A stretch of 64,000 nt of DNA from NCBI GenBank assembly GCA_017446055.1, contig JAFSRQ010000146.1, positions 1 through 64,000 on the forward strand, written 5' to 3'. Within the stretch, counting starts at the first letter, position 1. Each line of letters begins with the position of its first letter. This DNA is from Synergistaceae bacterium (lineage in GTDB: Bacteria; Synergistota; Synergistia; Synergistales; Aminobacteriaceae). Under the pieces are notes generated by a model. That model did no database searches and was not told the origin of the DNA. It saw only the letters and a program-made list of their open reading frames with translations. Both the position numbers and the translations under genes were made by a program. Below are positions 4,681 to 36,945 of the stretch, piece by piece.

Positions 4681-6006
4681 TCACATTATCACGTTTGATG
4701 ATACAGCCTCGTACATGAAGAATAATACTGCCCCCCGCGAGAAACTTCCCCAGCTGTACGGCGTTCCCTGAAAATATCTCAGCGACATACGAAGAGCCGT
4801 CAGCAAAAACGCTGTCAGCATCATCCTGAATGAAGCCTGCCGACTGGACTCAAGGCTGCGCATGAAGTAGAAACATGCCGTTGCTGTGAAGACTGAGAGA
4901 ACCGACAAGAGTATAGTGTTGGTTACCGCTTGGCCTGTTACGATGAATACGCCCGACGCTGAAGCGATTACAGCATAGCAGAACGCAAGGTAGTCCTGAA
5001 TGCAGAGGAATGAAGCGCACGCCGCCGCAAGTGTTCCCGCGCCGTAAATGCCGAGCTTCGCCGCTATAGTCTCACAAAGCCACGCCGTTACGATGATGAA
5101 GACTACGCACCATTCTGTAGGCTTATGCTCTCCCGCTCCCCTGCTGAGTATGTTAATCCACAGCGGCAGGGACAACACGCAAAGTATCACCGAGAAAATC
5201 TCGCCCTCCGGGAAAACGTCCTCAGTATATCCCTGAAGACGGAGAAGGATGGCTGTCTGCTCTGTTACTGTTTCGCCCTCGCTGATTATGACATCGCCGG
5301 GGTCAAACTTTCTGTCTATAGTCGGGACTGCGTTCATCACCGCCTGACGTGCAAGAACTGTAAGCCGTTCGTCATGCTTTATGTTGAGATTGCCGAAGAC
5401 CGCTAATATCTGGTACACAAAATTCGCGTCATTGTCGGGGATTTCCGCGCGGTGAATCTCGTCCCACAGTATAGAGTTCGTGTGATTGCTATCTGACGTG
5501 TATATGTTGTCGCGCTCCAGCCTGTCAAGGTACGAGCTTCCTACAGTGTAGGCGGAGTTGAGGATTCTGAACTTGTCATCGTTGCTGAGAGTGAGCAATG
5601 TTGATATAAACCTGTCTGCAAACGCTGAGAGATATTCAGACTTCTTCGCGGACTGCACATCCTGAATTTTTCCGAGAGCTTCAAGCCGCCGCCGGAGCTG
5701 TGATTTTGCCGTAACATCATTGACGTTGACACCCGCAATGCTTTCACCGACCATAGCCCGCAGCTTTGAGGCCGACTCCCTGTCATCGTAGCGCATCTGA
5801 GAGATCACGCGGTATGTCTCAGGAGCCGGGCTGCCGACCTTGAAGCTGTCTCCGCGCCTGTTGAGGACTGCCCATTGAGCGAGGACTATAGATATTCCCG
5901 CAAAAAGAAGGAACAGTAGCGGGCCTGCGTAATGTAACATTGAGGAGAAATCCACACGCTGAAATATGCTCTTTTCGGATGAGATTATCACTCTGCCGCG
6001 TTTCAT
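4681..6006 (-). CDS. pgpH: N-terminal extracytoplasmic and membrane half of PgpH (7TM-HDED)
   Basis: This 441-residue frame holds the first half of a PgpH-type protein. A membrane anchor lies at about residues 22-45, an extracytoplasmic 7TM-HDED domain at about 50-265 (with SPAPETYRV and FDPGDVIISEGETVTEQ), and a multi-pass membrane region follows. It stops at TGA 4681-4683 inside the last membrane helix (FFMYEAVSSNVIM, stop), just before the HD domain. Together the two halves make about 697 residues, the expected full length. The start ATG at 6006 overlaps the stop of the repeat ORF (ATGA) and is preceded by GAGGAGG. Confidence 0.87.
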   Translation of the reverse strand: MKRGRVIISSEKSIFQRVDFSSMLHYAGPLLFLLFAGISIVLAQWAVLNRRGDSFKVGSPAPETYRVISQMRYDDRESASKLRAMVGESIAGVNVNDVTAKSQLRRRLEALGKIQDVQSAKKSEYLSAFADRFISTLLTLSNDDKFRILNSAYTVGSSYLDRLERDNIYTSDSNHTNSILWDEIHRAEIPDNDANFVYQILAVFGNLNIKHDERLTVLARQAVMNAVPTIDRKFDPGDVIISEGETVTEQTAILLRLQGYTEDVFPEGEIFSVILCVLSLPLWINILSRGAGEHKPTEWCVVFIIVTAWLCETIAAKLGIYGAGTLAAACASFLCIQDYLAFCYAVIASASGVFIVTGQAVTNTILLSVLSVFTATACFYFMRSLESSRQASFRMMLTAFLLTALRMSLRYFQGTPYSWGSFSRGAVLFFMYEAVSSNVIM

Positions 6007-6230
6007 GGCCTGATGTCCTCCTCACAGCGTGATGTCTGAACGTGAGACTGGGACGTGTTCACCGGGTCAACTCTGCGTGTAATGGCCTGTGCTACTCGTG
6101 GCGTGAATGTCTGCATGTCAGGGTATGTGTTCACCGGGTGAAGTCCGTGCGTCATGGCCTGTACTACTCGCGGCGTGAATGCCTGCATGTTGGGGGATGT
6201 GTTCTTGAAGCCAGCATAGTATAGCCTCAC
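6003..6230 (-). CDS. Small repeat ORF bridging phoH and pgpH
   Basis: The frame encodes 75 residues and is locked to both neighbours: its GTG overlaps the phoH stop (GTGA) and its stop overlaps the pgpH start (ATGA). It consists of two 24-residue repeats (NMQAFTPRVVQAMTHGLHPV and DMQTFTPRVAQAITRRVDPV) and a partial third (HVQTSRCEEDIRP). The units resemble the PhoH C-terminus (IVQKIVQAYTRYEEENKL). The last unit repeats the DNA TGAGGAGGA that serves as ribosome-binding site. I know of no family. It may be a genuine small protein or a spacer kept open to preserve translational coupling. Confidence 0.5.
   Translation of the reverse strand: MRLYYAGFKNTSPNMQAFTPRVVQAMTHGLHPVNTYPDMQTFTPRVAQAITRRVDPVNTSQSHVQTSRCEEDIRP
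6055..6198 (-). repeat. 72-bp tandem repeat at the phoH-pgpH junction
   Basis: Units start at 6055 and 6127, and a partial one at 6199, at an exact 72-base spacing. Shared blocks include gtgttcaccgggt, atggcctgt and actcg. The period is 24 codons, so the reading frame is kept. The copy nearest pgpH resembles the 3' end of phoH, which suggests the array grew by duplication of that end. Confidence 0.85.
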
Positions 6231-22309: not shown

Positions 22310-23890
22310 ATGATGAAATTCCTTCGCACACAAATGAAATGGATAATGGCAGTAATCGTTATTGCGTTCCTGCTGTCCACATTCCTGATGTATGAAGGCA
22401 GGGGGACAAGGCGCACACCTTCCCGCAACCCGGACGGCTCAATGGCGGATTACGAGGTCGCCCAGATCAACGGACGCTCACTCATGCGCTCGGAGCTTGA
22501 GCAGAGACTCCGCAACTACCTCAGCACTTACAGCACAAGAAGCGTTGCGTCTATAGACATGCCTGCGATATACAGGTCAGTGCTTGACGAGGCAATACTT
22601 GAGTCCCAGCTCGCAAAGGAAGTACAGGAGAAGGGAATCACGGTGTCAGACGCTGAAGCTGACCAGGCCATGAAGAGCTATGCTGATACATATTTCCCTA
22701 CACGCGAGGCTTTCTATCAGGTTCTCGCAAATTCGGGACTCAAGCCGGAGGACTACAAGAGGAGTCTTGCGCGTCAGATGGCTTCGGAGAGACTGATACG
22801 CGAGGCAGTCGGGGAAATCACAGTGAGCGAGGACAAAGTATCAGAGTTCTACGACACGATGAAGAATATACTCTACATTCAGCCGGAAGGGTACATGATA
22901 CACATGGCCGACTTCAGCACGAGCGGGGATGCTGAGAAATTCCGCGCGATGCTGGCCGCCGGAGCAAGCTGGGACGCTACGGTGTCAGGCGACTCTCTTG
23001 CCTCGATGGACGTAATCAACATCACACGCTCACCCGTAAGGCTTCCTGCAAGCACATTCAGGTCGGGGATATTGAGCGTTCTTGCGTCTGTTGACGTGGG
23101 GCAGGCCAGCCCGGTGTTTACGGTTTCGAGCAACGATTACGGGGTCGCGCTGAAGGTATCACATGTTGACGCTAGCAATACACCATTTGATGAGGTCAGC
23201 GGTGATATCAGGACAATGCTCTCACAGCAGGAGGAGCGCAACAGGTTGTCGTCATACGAGTCATCATTGAGGGCAAAAGCAAGCGTAGTGATTAATGACG
23301 AGGAATTATTCGCCAGCACCGCAGCATCACAGGACAAATCGCAGTCAGCAGATATTCTCCCTATAATGAGCATTGAGGAGGAAGAAGAAATTGACGAGCC
23401 AGAGTCAGAAGATGAAGCGATTGAGGACGAGCCGGAAGAGGAAGAGCCAGAAGAGTCCGCTGAACCTGTAGCAGCCAGCGAGGACAAGACAGCTGAGACT
23501 CCCGCGCCCGTCGTAACAGTCAGTGAGGACGAACCAGCAGAGACACCCGCCCCTGTAGCAGTCAGCGAGGACACGACAGCTGAGACTCCCGAACCCGTAA
23601 CAGTCAGTGAAGACACTACAGCTGAGACTCCCGAACCCGTAACAGTGAGTGAAGATACGCCAGCTGAGACTCCCGCGCCTGTTGAACCAGTAACAGAAGC
23701 CGAGACACCCGAACCTGTAGCAACAGCAAGCGAGGACACTACAGCTGTAGCAGAAGCACCGTCAGCAGAAGAAGCCCCCGCGCCCGTTGAGCAGTCAGCA
23801 GACACAGAGACACCCGCGCCTATTGAGGCACTCAGCGAGGATACACCAGCAGTAACAGTAACAGAAGCATCACCAGACATACAGCAGTAA
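22310..23890 (+). CDS. PpiD/SurA-like membrane-anchored chaperone with acidic repeat tail
   Basis: The N-terminus (FLRTQMKWIMAVIVIAFLLS) is a membrane anchor. About residues 50-180 form a SurA_N-type chaperone domain (YEVAQINGRSLMRSELEQRL, LDEAILESQLAKEVQEKGI). About 190-330 resembles a degenerate parvulin domain. Residues from about 345 on are very acidic, then Pro/Thr/Glu-rich with 14-residue repeats of the type SEDTTAETPEPVTV. The protein probably assists folding outside the inner membrane. The acidic repeat tail is not normal for this family. The first of two adjacent ATGs is used here; AAAGAGGG lies about 12 bases upstream. Confidence 0.8.
   Translation: MMKFLRTQMKWIMAVIVIAFLLSTFLMYEGRGTRRTPSRNPDGSMADYEVAQINGRSLMRSELEQRLRNYLSTYSTRSVASIDMPAIYRSVLDEAILESQLAKEVQEKGITVSDAEADQAMKSYADTYFPTREAFYQVLANSGLKPEDYKRSLARQMASERLIREAVGEITVSEDKVSEFYDTMKNILYIQPEGYMIHMADFSTSGDAEKFRAMLAAGASWDATVSGDSLASMDVINITRSPVRLPASTFRSGILSVLASVDVGQASPVFTVSSNDYGVALKVSHVDASNTPFDEVSGDIRTMLSQQEERNRLSSYESSLRAKASVVINDEELFASTAASQDKSQSADILPIMSIEEEEEIDEPESEDEAIEDEPEEEEPEESAEPVAASEDKTAETPAPVVTVSEDEPAETPAPVAVSEDTTAETPEPVTVSEDTTAETPEPVTVSEDTPAETPAPVEPVTEAETPEPVATASEDTTAVAEAPSAEEAPAPVEQSADTETPAPIEALSEDTPAVTVTEASPDIQQ
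23470..23740 (+). repeat. 42-bp coding repeats in the chaperone tail
   Basis: Copies of the motif SEDxxAETPxPVxV recur; two neighbouring copies (about 23567-23650) are almost identical at the DNA level with a 42-base period. This points to slippage or recombination in the tail. Confidence 0.75.
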
Positions 23891-33290: not shown

Positions 33291-34544
33291 ATGGAGAATT
33301 TTGACACCCTCATAATCGGAGGCGGCCCCGCGGGATTAATGGCGGCAATACGGGCATCATCACTCGGCCAGAACGTTGCCATCATCGAGAAGAATCACTC
33401 ACTGGGCAGCAAGCTCCTGCTGTCGGGAAAAGGTCGCTGCAACTTCACCAACGCCGAGTCAGACATCGATGCGTTCATCTCTCGCTACAGGGGCAGCGGG
33501 AAGTTCCTGTACTCATCATTCAGCCGCTTCGGGCCTCTCAGGACTCGCGAATGGTTCAGCCACATCGGGGTGAAGTGGGACGAGGAGCGAGGCAGACGCA
33601 TTTTCCCCAGAGAAGGAGGAAGCCAGCGTGTGCTTGACGCTCTTCTCATGCAGTGCCGGAAGAACGGAGTGAAGATCATGCGGTCGACTCCCGTCAAAGC
33701 CCTCAAGATTCGCGGCGGCCATGTGGAATTTGCCCTCACCGAGAATGACGAGTACACAGCGGGGAAATACATCATCACCACTGGCGGCAAGTCTTACCCC
33801 GCAACAGGCTCGACAGGGGACGGCTACGAGTTCGCGCGGCAGGCAGGACACACAATCACAGCCCTCTATCCTGCCCTCGTCCCGGTCAGGACACGCGAGA
33901 CATGGCCGAAGATTGCTTCAGGGTGCGACCTGCGGAATGTGCGTGTTACTGTTCTTGCTGACGGTGAGAATGTCGCCGAAAGATTCGGGGAAATGGAGTT
34001 CACGAATTTCGGTGTCTCCGGGCCAATCGTTATGGACTTGAGCCGTTACCTGCCTGACTGGATGACTCATGATGACGGTACAGAGACGGAGCTTCAATTC
34101 TCGCTGGACATGAAGCCGACCCTCTCGCCCGAAATCCTCACCGAGCGAATCCGGCGCGACATCACGAAACATTCAGGGCACGGGAGATTCTCCGGGCTGA
34201 TACGCTCGCTTGTCCCGGCGAAAATGTTAGCGTTATTCCTCGAACTGTCAGACGTTCCCCACGACAAGCCGACCGACTACATGAGCGATGAAGAAATTGC
34301 TGACACAGTCTCACTCCTCAAGGATATACGCATGAACATCAACGGCCTGTGGGGCTGGAACAACGCCATGGTTACGCGGGGAGGAGTCAGCCTCAAGGAA
34401 ATAGATCCGTCAACAATGCGGTCAAAGCTGTGCGATAATCTCTATTTCGCGGGTGAAGTTCTCGACCTTGACGGGCCTTCGGGGGGCTTCAACCTTCAAG
34501 TGTGCTGGTCAACAGGATATGCAGCAGGGAGCGTGAACGAATAA
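33291..34544 (+). CDS. BaiN/HI0933-type flavoprotein
   Basis: This 417-residue FAD protein has the dinucleotide fold at the N-terminus (FDTLIIGGGPAGLMAAIRA), the family motif GSKLLLSGKGRCNFTN, TGGKSYPATGSTGDGYE, and the C-terminal flavin-binding stretch LYFAGEVLDLDGPSGGFNLQ. Members include BaiN of bile-acid reduction and YhiN; most are uncharacterised oxidoreductases. The strong AGGAGG lies about 18 bases before the ATG, further than ideal, and no start-like codon lies between. The 3' end of the gene is repeated downstream (see the junction repeats). Confidence 0.92.
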   Translation: MENFDTLIIGGGPAGLMAAIRASSLGQNVAIIEKNHSLGSKLLLSGKGRCNFTNAESDIDAFISRYRGSGKFLYSSFSRFGPLRTREWFSHIGVKWDEERGRRIFPREGGSQRVLDALLMQCRKNGVKIMRSTPVKALKIRGGHVEFALTENDEYTAGKYIITTGGKSYPATGSTGDGYEFARQAGHTITALYPALVPVRTRETWPKIASGCDLRNVRVTVLADGENVAERFGEMEFTNFGVSGPIVMDLSRYLPDWMTHDDGTETELQFSLDMKPTLSPEILTERIRRDITKHSGHGRFSGLIRSLVPAKMLALFLELSDVPHDKPTDYMSDEEIADTVSLLKDIRMNINGLWGWNNAMVTRGGVSLKEIDPSTMRSKLCDNLYFAGEVLDLDGPSGGFNLQVCWSTGYAAGSVNE

Positions 34545-34779
34545 TGCTGACGGATCACAGCGGGCTACACGTGAGCTTCAGCCGTCAAGCGCGGACAACT
34601 GGATACACAGCCGGGGGTGCTGACGAATTGCACCGGGCTTCACGGGAGCTTCTGCCTTCGGGCGGGACAACTGGACACACTGCAGGGAATGCAGGCGAAT
34701 GATGCCGTGCTACACGGGAACTTCAGCTTTCAGGTTTGCGGACAACAAGACACACAGCAGGGAGCGTGAACGAATAATG
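34480..34779 (+). repeat. Degenerate tandem copies of the flavoprotein 3' end
   Basis: Three units of about 84, 74 and 75 bases (ending near 34630, 34704 and 34779) follow the original end of the flavoprotein gene. The first and last junctions share 25 identical bases (34522-34546 and 34755-34779) covering the stop codon and next ATG. The middle units share cgggctacacg, gcggacaactgg and acacagc-type blocks. Confidence 0.85.
34544..34702 (+). CDS. Small repeat ORF between flavoprotein and coaX
   Basis: The 52-residue frame starts at an ATG overlapping the flavoprotein stop by one base (TAATG) and ends at a TGA overlapped by ATGATG of a frame that runs into coaX. It contains RTTGYTAGGADELHRASREL and GTTGHTAGNAGE, related to the flavoprotein C-terminus (STGYAAGSVNE). 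No family is known. It may be a by-product of junction duplication rather than a functional protein. Confidence 0.4.
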   Translation: MLTDHSGLHVSFSRQARTTGYTAGGADELHRASRELLPSGGTTGHTAGNAGE

Positions 34780-35544
34780 TTACTGGTAATCGACACTGGA
34801 AACACAACAACGGCGGCGGGAGTCTATGACGGTGAAGAGCTTATAGCGCACTGGCGGCTGTCATCAACACCCCGCACACATGATGAGCTGGGGATATATT
34901 TCTTGGGACTTCTGCGGACGATTGACGTTAAGCCCTCGGACATTCACGGTGCGGCGTTCGCTAGCGTTGTGCCGTCACTTGACTTCCCCATCATCGAGGC
35001 CATCAAGAAATATTTCGGCGTTGAACCCTTGCAGGTGAACGGCACTACAGATACGGGCATGAAGATATTGTGCGACAGCCCGCGTGAAGTTGGCGCGGAT
35101 AGAATCGTGAACGCTGTAGCAGGCCGGGAGAAGTACGGAATGCCGCTGATAGTTGCTGACTACGGGACGGCGATAACGTTTGACGTTGTATCACCGGAAG
35201 GCGCGTACATGGGCGGAGTGATAGCCCCCGGACTCATGTCGGGAATATCGGCTCTGTTCTCGAAGGCCGCAAAACTCCCGCAAGTTGCGCTGAACATCCC
35301 CGCCAGCGTCATAGGCAGAAACACGGAGCAGGCTATACAGTCGGGAATACTGTTCGGGAATGCCGGGCTGACTGACAGAATAGTCGACATGATCCGCGCA
35401 GACCCGGCCATGAAGGGCGCGAAGGTCATAGCCACCGGGGGACATGCCGGGCTGATGAAGAGAGTCTCAGAGAGGATTGACGCTGTGGACAAGTGGCTGA
35501 CGCTGGAAGGTCTGAAGATGATATTCGAGCGGGTGAACGGGTGA
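34777..35544 (+). CDS. coaX: Type III pantothenate kinase
   Basis: At 256 residues this is a normal CoaX. Its ASKHA-fold motifs are LLVIDTGNTTTAAGVYDG, PREVGADRIVNAVAG, VADYGTAITFDVV, YMGGVIAPGLMSG and VIATGGHAGLM. It phosphorylates pantothenate, the first step of CoA synthesis. The ATG at 34777 is where the family begins. The frame is open 26 codons further upstream through the repeat (MMPCYTGTSAFRFADN), so a longer form is possible. It is coupled to dus by GTGA. Confidence 0.94.
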   Translation: MLLVIDTGNTTTAAGVYDGEELIAHWRLSSTPRTHDELGIYFLGLLRTIDVKPSDIHGAAFASVVPSLDFPIIEAIKKYFGVEPLQVNGTTDTGMKILCDSPREVGADRIVNAVAGREKYGMPLIVADYGTAITFDVVSPEGAYMGGVIAPGLMSGISALFSKAAKLPQVALNIPASVIGRNTEQAIQSGILFGNAGLTDRIVDMIRADPAMKGAKVIATGGHAGLMKRVSERIDAVDKWLTLEGLKMIFERVNG

Positions 35545-36491
35545 TTGTCGGCGGTATTAATGTTGACGGGAGAATGTTCCTCGCGCCTCTTGCGGGGATA
35601 ACGACTCTTCCTGTGAGGGAGTTCTTCTCGTCTCACGGGGCATCTCTGACTCACACAGAGATGATTTCCTGCGCCGGGCTAATCCGTGACAACGCAAAGA
35701 CTTTCGACATGCTAGCGGTCTCTGAACGTGAAGCCCCCCTAGTCGTACAGCTTTTCGCGAATGACGCGGGAGTCCTGGTGTCAGGCGGTGAGGTCGTGCT
35801 GAAACGTAACGTAAGGCTCTCGGCTTTTGGTGTGAACATGGCCTGCCCCATGCCCAAAATCACCCGCAACGGAAGCGGCTCTGCTCTCCTGAAGAAACCT
35901 GAACTTGCCGGGGAAATGGTGAAGGGCTTGAAGTCTCTTGGCCTGCCTGTGTGGGTCAAGATACGGCGGCTCGATGATGACTCTGACACATTGAGGTTTG
36001 TTGACGGACTCGTGAATGCGGGCGCGGATAACGTCTGCATACATGGCCGTACTCAGTCGCAAAGGTACGAGGGTATTGCTGACAGGGGGATTGTTGCGGT
36101 TGCGGCGCGGGAATTTCCGGGTATGATTAGTGCTAGCGGTGATGTGCGTGAAGTGAGTGATGTTGACGAATATTTGTCGGTGGGATGCGCTGGTGTTATG
36201 GTTGCGCGCGGGGCGTTCAGCAATCCGTTCATGTTTGAGGAATGGCGCAGCAGGTTCAGGACGAGGGAAGAAAAAATTGACGAGCTGGTAAACTTTGCCC
36301 GCAATGCTGACGAAATTTCTGGTGAACACAAAGCAGTGGTGTTGATGAAACGTTTTGCCGGGAGTATCCTGCGGAATGAGAGAGGCTCGGCGGAACTCAG
36401 GCAGAAGGCTATGATGTCAGCAAGCCTTGAGGAAATCACAGAGATATTGCGACAAGGGGCGGGGGATTTCGCACAAAGCAGGCAGAGTTGA
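35541..36491 (+). CDS. dus: tRNA-dihydrouridine synthase
   Basis: From the GTG at 35541, overlapping the coaX stop (GTGA), the protein has 316 residues. Family features are FLAPLAGITTLPVREF, the catalytic Cys in GVNMACPMPKI, LPVWVKIRRLDDD and CIHGRTQSQRYEGIADRG. It reduces uridines in tRNA D-loops using FMN; which Dus subgroup it is cannot be told. A longer frame inside coaX lacks support. The C-terminus (SAELRQKAMMSASLEEITEI) is the segment copied downstream. Confidence 0.92.
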   Translation: MIVGGINVDGRMFLAPLAGITTLPVREFFSSHGASLTHTEMISCAGLIRDNAKTFDMLAVSEREAPLVVQLFANDAGVLVSGGEVVLKRNVRLSAFGVNMACPMPKITRNGSGSALLKKPELAGEMVKGLKSLGLPVWVKIRRLDDDSDTLRFVDGLVNAGADNVCIHGRTQSQRYEGIADRGIVAVAAREFPGMISASGDVREVSDVDEYLSVGCAGVMVARGAFSNPFMFEEWRSRFRTREEKIDELVNFARNADEISGEHKAVVLMKRFAGSILRNERGSAELRQKAMMSASLEEITEILRQGAGDFAQSRQS

Positions 36492-36660
36492 TGAGCGTTG
36501 TGAGACATGAGCGGGACTCGGCGGAATTGCTACAGACTACGAGGAATTTCACAGGGGATTTCGCACAAGCAGAGCCGATGAAGCACACTAAGACGCGAAG
36601 GCAGAAGGCTATAATGTCCGCAAGCCTCGCAGGAATCACACAAATATTGAGAGGGAGCGT
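36386..36660 (+). repeat. Duplicated dus 3' end
   Basis: gcagaaggctat at 36401 recurs at 36601 with a 200-base offset and about 50 further bases of close similarity. ctcggcgga at 36386 recurs at 36517. ggggatttcgcacaa at 36462-36476 recurs at 36554-36568. The differing offsets show more than one duplication or an internal deletion. Confidence 0.88.
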
Positions 36661-36670
36661 AAAACTATGA
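36491..36670 (+). CDS. Small repeat ORF between dus and the TSCPD gene
   Basis: The 59-residue frame begins at an ATG overlapping the dus stop (TGATG) and ends at a TGA overlapping the next start (ATGA). Its first part (RHERDSAELLQ, then FTGDFAQAEP) and its last part (RRQKAIMSASLAGITQIL) copy the Dus C-terminus (RNERGSAELRQKAMMSASLE, EITEILRQGAGDFAQ) in rearranged order. The last 30 codons are the clearest copy. It is probably a duplication by-product that preserves coupling; a function cannot be excluded. Confidence 0.45.
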   Translation: MSVVRHERDSAELLQTTRNFTGDFAQAEPMKHTKTRRQKAIMSASLAGITQILRGSVKL

Positions 36671-36945
36671 GAGAACATTACGAGTACAAGCCGGAAGGTG
36701 TATGCACGAAGATGATAACGTTTGACATAGAGGACGGGAAAATTTACGGCCTTCACTTCTTGGGAGGCTGTCCCGGAAATCTGGCGGCAATATCGCGGCT
36801 TCTTGAGGGTGCTTACGCTGAGACTACAGCGGGCATTCTCAGGGGCAACAGGTGCGGGCATCGTCATACTTCCTGCGCTGACCAGCTCGCTACGGCTATC
36901 GACCGTGCCATTATCGCGGGTGAAGAACGCCGCAAAGCCTCGTAG
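36667..36945 (+). CDS. TSCPD-domain protein
   Basis: This 92-residue protein matches the TSCPD family in full: CTKMITFDIEDGKIYGLHF, GGCPGNLAAISRLLEG, LRGNRCGHRHTSCADQLATA. The conserved Cys residues suggest metal or nucleotide binding as in the ribonucleotide reductase tail domain. Its role as a free-standing protein is unknown. The ATG is overlapped by the stop of the repeat ORF, so it may depend on translational coupling. Confidence 0.88.
   Translation: MREHYEYKPEGVCTKMITFDIEDGKIYGLHFLGGCPGNLAAISRLLEGAYAETTAGILRGNRCGHRHTSCADQLATAIDRAIIAGEERRKAS

Follow-up and report, generated by a model that had tools for sequence, protein, structure and literature searches.

The 3′ end of the dus gene of a ruminant-gut Synergistaceae bacterium has been duplicated head to tail in front of the neighboring TSCPD-domain gene, and the duplicated DNA carries a 59-aa open reading frame (ORF) that overlaps the stop codon of dus and the start codon of the TSCPD gene. 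The window, that is, the whole stretch of 64,000 nucleotides that we analysed, belongs to a genome (G000) that is a member of a ruminant-gut Synergistaceae genus. The event at the dus-TSCPD junction is one of many alike in this genome. We consider it reasonably probable that the junction arose by a nested tandem duplication of the dus 3′ end, specific to this species and by now partly decayed, in which the copies that keep the two genes translationally coupled survive as a relay.

Anatomy of the dus-TSCPD junction

All features of this junction lie on the plus strand. The dus gene (tRNA-dihydrouridine synthase, 35541-36491) matches PF01207 over residues 14-298 (E 1.5e-48) and stops at TGA 36489-36491 (TTGATGAG), and the TSCPD-domain gene (36667-36945, 92 aa; PF12637, E 1.1e-20) starts at ATG 36667 (CTATGAGA). 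The linker ORF (36491-36670) runs from ATG 36491 to TGA 36668-36670 and encodes 59 aa. It overlaps dus at TGATG (36489-36493) and the TSCPD gene by −4 at ATGA (36667-36670); overlapping stop and start codons, a feature of termination-reinitiation coupling, are thus present at both of its ends. These overlaps agree with the first-pass annotation, which had been made from the sequence and had proposed that the dus end was duplicated before the TSCPD gene.

That annotation had listed three blocks of the dus end that recur downstream at offsets of 131, 92 and 200, and our repeat search found them at the same places. The block at offset 200 (36399-36452 and 36599-36652) is 54 nt long with 83% identity, that at offset 131 (36376-36395 and 36507-36526) is 20 nt long with 85% identity, and that at offset 92 (36462-36476 and 36554-36568) is 15 nt long with 100% identity; dinucleotide shuffles matched the block scores in 0/500, 4/500 and 0/500 cases, respectively. 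The protein similarity between the dus end and its copy (RQKAMMSASLEEITEIL and RQKAIMSASLAGITQIL), also noted earlier, is readable straight from the sequence.

Self-alignment showed that the copied material extends beyond the three blocks. The filler at 36466-36526 goes back to dus 36315-36395, of which it is a degraded copy (gapped alignment score 44, equalled in 0/1000 shuffles), and the repeat alignments place the template part of the dus 3′ end, the source of the later copies, at 36315-36452. The 15-nt block and its continuation (36462-36494, GGGGATTTCGCACAA...GCAGAG..GATGA) recur at 36554-36581 with offsets of 92 and 87 (0/500 shuffles), a recurrence that is a nested second event. The last copy, of dus 36399-36452, lies at 36599-36652 and is followed by the ancestral dus 3′ end and TSCPD start region (36653-36669), which contains GGGAG (36653-36657) and ATG (36667-36669) and has the same end in relatives. 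The inserted DNA therefore consists almost wholly of dus copies with deletions between them. The copies are arranged head to tail and come from local sequence, as in a tandem duplication, and the junction segment occurs only once in the 2.39-Mb genome. The start codon of the linker, ATG 36491, is a copy of the Met codon of LMKRF, which belongs to the dus reading frame.

A survey of the junction in relatives covered 26 congener loci with both dus and TSCPD genes. The junction was compact in 24 of them, many with ATGA or a −1 overlap, the exceptions being a 27-nt spacer (L008) and an unrelated 656-nt insert (L023). Close relatives lack the duplication at this locus and have one dus end abutting the TSCPD gene, so that the extra DNA, which aligns to dus, is the derived state. 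The congener Dus proteins have C-termini such as EITEILQKGNVTI, NILREGSIRKL or DILRKGSV, and dus ends of the ..GSIRKL and ..GNVTI types occur with ATGA. Because the last copy in the source genome ends in ITQILRGSVKL with ATGA, like the relatives, it is the downstream copy that holds the ancestral C-terminus and junction, and the present dus has a new tail. The similarity of dus to its relatives stops near EIL, and after EITEIL the protein now ends in RQGAGDFAQSRQS; despite this tail, the PF01207 match still spans the residues given above.

In another species, represented by a further goat MAG, RGIG1612, the dus 3′ end was duplicated independently at this junction, with a different unit (L062:6706-7039, offsets 203 and 126). 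A 27-aa ORF with a GTG start stops there 6 nt before the TSCPD start.

The 59-aa ORF had no match in the 42 other genomes of the genus (its own genome only among 43) and matched no Pfam family. An independent, conserved small-protein family, the finding that would have overturned the first-pass proposal, was thereby ruled out. The dN/dS comparison proposed at the same time was less informative: the copied segment gave 5.0/11.7 synonymous and 4.0/42.3 nonsynonymous changes, a ratio of 0.16, which at only 18 codons is too short to mean much.

Reading phase at coupled junctions

Two other junctions of the window have the same design. Before coaX, the 3′ end of an HI0933-like flavoprotein gene is present four times on the plus strand. 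The first copy is the gene end itself (34482-34546); a 52-aa linker ORF (34544-34702) runs through the second and third copies in the frame of the flavoprotein; and the last copy (34716-34779; offset 233/234, 0/1000 shuffles) is the coaX start region with ATG 34777. Identity between the first and last copies is 88%, with 25 identical nt (CAGCAGGGAGCGTGAACGAATAATG) of the coaX start region, and the middle copies have decayed. On the minus strand, a 75-aa linker ORF (6003-6230) connects phoH (stop at 6227) to a 7TM-HD gene (start 6006); it contains a 72-bp tandem array (6050-6204), and its final part has the appearance of a copied phoH end. In most relatives the flavoprotein-coaX junction is single and compact, and the phoH/7TM-HD junction is a compact overlap.

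A TGATG restart before coaX (window 34699-34779) is in frame with coaX, and CoaX could carry an N-terminal extension of 25-26 residues if started there and not at ATG 34777. Elsewhere in the window, in-frame repeats of ~42 nt (EPVTVSEDTTAETP) occupy 23438-23850, where a membrane-anchored ORF ends shortly before a 1081-aa carB-like gene, and domain-size in-frame repeats (~250-260 nt) occur at 466-1082 on the minus strand in a large predicted secreted protein.

Fresh cases were found in a congener, G005, where we take the gene names ybeY, CNNM and Mnh from reading the sequences. The linkers in this genome are a gene-B start joined to a gene-A end. At ybeY-CNNM, a 275-bp unit gives a 92-aa linker composed of ~70 residues of the gene B start and 22 of the gene A end; at an Mnh-type pair, a 290-bp unit gives a 97-aa linker; and at phoH-HD, a 299-bp unit in three copies gives two 100-aa linkers. 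ATGA stands at both linker ends in these three cases. At mnhF-mnhG, a 93-bp unit is present in four copies. The same genome also has a convergent array (L132:2876-3473) with a unit made up of the 3′ ends of the two neighboring genes; its extra copies are stop-free and differ mostly at synonymous sites.

At a −4 or −1 overlap, the frame of gene B is that of gene A minus one, and therefore an offset of 2 mod 3 is required for a restarting ribosome to read the copied gene A end natively. At such an offset, the restarted ribosome stays in the native frame of the copied end until it stops at the next start. The offsets at dus (131, 92 and 200), coaX (86), phoH (224) and in G005 (275, 290 and 299) are all 2 mod 3, and the later copies at the coaX junction are spaced by 72 and 75. 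The phase rule fits 6 of 7 coupled junctions (p 0.007), where the choice of which junctions count as coupled was our own judgement. The exception is the mnhF-mnhG unit of 93 (0 mod 3), yet even here the stop lies 3 nt before the next ATG; likewise, the offset of 126 in L062 is 0 mod 3, and the stop is still within 6 nt of the next start. With random substitution at 15-25% divergence, the chance that the frames of all three window linkers stay open is 0.02-0.09, which is only moderate support.

These phases bear on a rival explanation, namely that the linker is neutral debris of a drifted duplication, open because it was inherited as coding sequence, and that the TSCPD gene uses its own ribosome-binding site. 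The last copy, like the relatives, preserves a GGGAG 9 nt ahead of ATG 36667, so coupling may be dispensable; comparable codons number only 18, and uncoupled arrays are also numerous. Against this, every offset at the window's three junctions is 2 mod 3 or lies a multiple of 3 away from such a value. The fresh G005 duplications that fall on overlapping junctions retain ATGA on both sides. We regard neutral debris as possible but rather unlikely.

A translated product with a function of its own would be a different matter. Between the two PhoH-tail linkers of G005 there are 13 synonymous changes and 1 nonsynonymous change, and the segment RQKAxMSASLxxITxIL is retained, as would be expected if the linkers encoded functional small proteins derived from the C-terminus of Dus or, in G005, of PhoH. 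However, the peptide is absent from 42 congeners and matches no family, and AMM and EEITEIL of the relatives match the dus copy, which places the replacements in the linker copy. Moreover, the presumably untranslated copies of the convergent array are equally biased toward synonymous changes, and for this reason we do not take low dN/dS as evidence for functional peptides; purifying selection on the linker peptides was rejected on the same ground. The synonymous bias is probably better explained by copy exchange with the functional end or by recombination with population alleles. A functional small protein is thus very unlikely, and the 59-aa peptide itself is probably a by-product.

A putative translational relay

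In the relay reading that we prefer, a ~145-nt unit starting inside dus would have been duplicated first. The dus gene would then have read into its own copy in another frame, ending at TGATG, and the copied internal Met would restart translation in the native dus frame; the second, nested duplication (~92 nt) and the deletions would have come later. A ribosome finishing dus would restart at TGATG, read the linker, end at ATGA and restart on the TSCPD gene, so that the chain of restarts would keep the downstream gene from being uncoupled by the duplication. Selection would retain the first copy for the Dus C-terminus, the last copy for the TSCPD start region, and an open, in-phase frame between them. 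The same process may have acted at the other junctions of G000 and of G005. The role of the 59-aa ORF as a translational relay, its translation, its influence on the TSCPD gene and the order of events are all deduced from the arrangement of the sequence.

Termination-reinitiation coupling occurs at ATGA and TGATG overlaps (PMC6728339, PMC10666635), and the linker has exactly these overlaps at its two ends. It differs in that the putative relay ORF was born of a duplication and is not an ordinary gene. Another parallel is offered by mycobacterial interspersed repetitive units, MIRUs (Supply et al. 1997, as described in PMC12548453), short repetitive sequences that are apparently mobile and appear to insert at start codons; a small ORF between operon genes is coupled downstream by a −4 overlap, which allows extra DNA there with little effect on expression. 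The dus-TSCPD linker is also an ORF with a −4 overlap onto the next gene, but each of its units is a copy of the neighboring gene's own end and is found nowhere else. Since it lacks the dispersed family of related units that characterizes MIRUs, the linker is not a MIRU.

Like minisatellites and VNTRs, the arrays described here are head to tail, with units of ~50-340 bp in 2-5 copies, mostly non-genic and unrelated between loci. Unlike them, the units frequently span the end of one gene and the start of the following one, from which linker ORFs arise, and the arrays show a phase bias at coupled junctions and a density far above that of sister species. We found no paper combining Synergistaceae with intergenic tandem repeats. 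The material is ordinary tandem duplication; what is new is the arrangement and the abundance. Each duplication at an overlapping junction is a natural experiment on which reading phase survives, and hence on the constraint that coupling places on operon evolution, and chains of small coupled ORFs that would be annotated as genes can arise mechanically by duplication of gene ends.

Tandem arrays across the genus

Non-genic arrays inside contigs were counted with one TRF setting. There were 18 in the 787 kb surveyed for G000, 12 in the 125 kb surveyed for G005 and 3 in 855 kb of 24 other congeners, that is, ~6.5-fold (p 4e-4) and 27-fold (p 6e-9) the density of the sampled congeners for G000 and G005, respectively; further arrays were located at contig ends. 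Gene-end duplication of the same kind is rare in the rest of the genus. The abundance points to species with an unusual tendency to duplicate, whose cause could be sought.

An automated search for overlap-chained linker ORFs returned only 2 in G000, 1 in G005 and 3 elsewhere; because its simple gene caller overlooks the TSCPD gene and takes some linkers for genes, we left these low counts out of the evidence. Among uncoupled intergenic arrays, the period was a multiple of 3 in 11 of 16 in G000 (p 0.004) and in 0 of 8 in G005, and some of the G000 arrays could be parts of reading frames that went unrecognised.

The assemblies of the two array-rich genomes are both fragmented, and copies that differ chiefly at synonymous sites resemble strain alleles, as they would if strain variants of one junction had been joined head to tail in assembling the MAG. 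Other fragmented congeners are without arrays, however, and the dus copies are at least 17% diverged, contain several indels and meet in a new frame, which indicates that the duplication is old. An assembly artefact is therefore extremely improbable.

When units were compared, 33 of 38 arrays had no match elsewhere in the sample; the remaining 5 were accounted for by one array split over two contig ends, ankyrin-type coding repeats and a neighboring paralogous stretch. A mobile or dispersed repeat was ruled out because array units are locus-specific. Arrays of about two copies showed neither long flanking homology nor any clear excess over complete copies. Like 14 relatives, G000 and G005 encode the Pol I 5′ nuclease domain, MutS and DHH/RecJ-type proteins, and Ku was missing from every one of the 41 genomes tested; none of these repair genes accounts for the array richness of the two genomes.

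More speculatively, gene ends may be duplicated in tandem again and again by an active process in some Synergistaceae species, only the phase-correct duplications persisting at overlapping junctions as chains of relay ORFs. Spare copies would turn over with the functional end and evolve as if under purifying selection, most of them being non-genes. On another contig of G000 (C2, L037:9686-10166), a 248-bp tandem duplication of an rsmH-like gene start and its upstream region has copies that are 97% identical and is a recent event.
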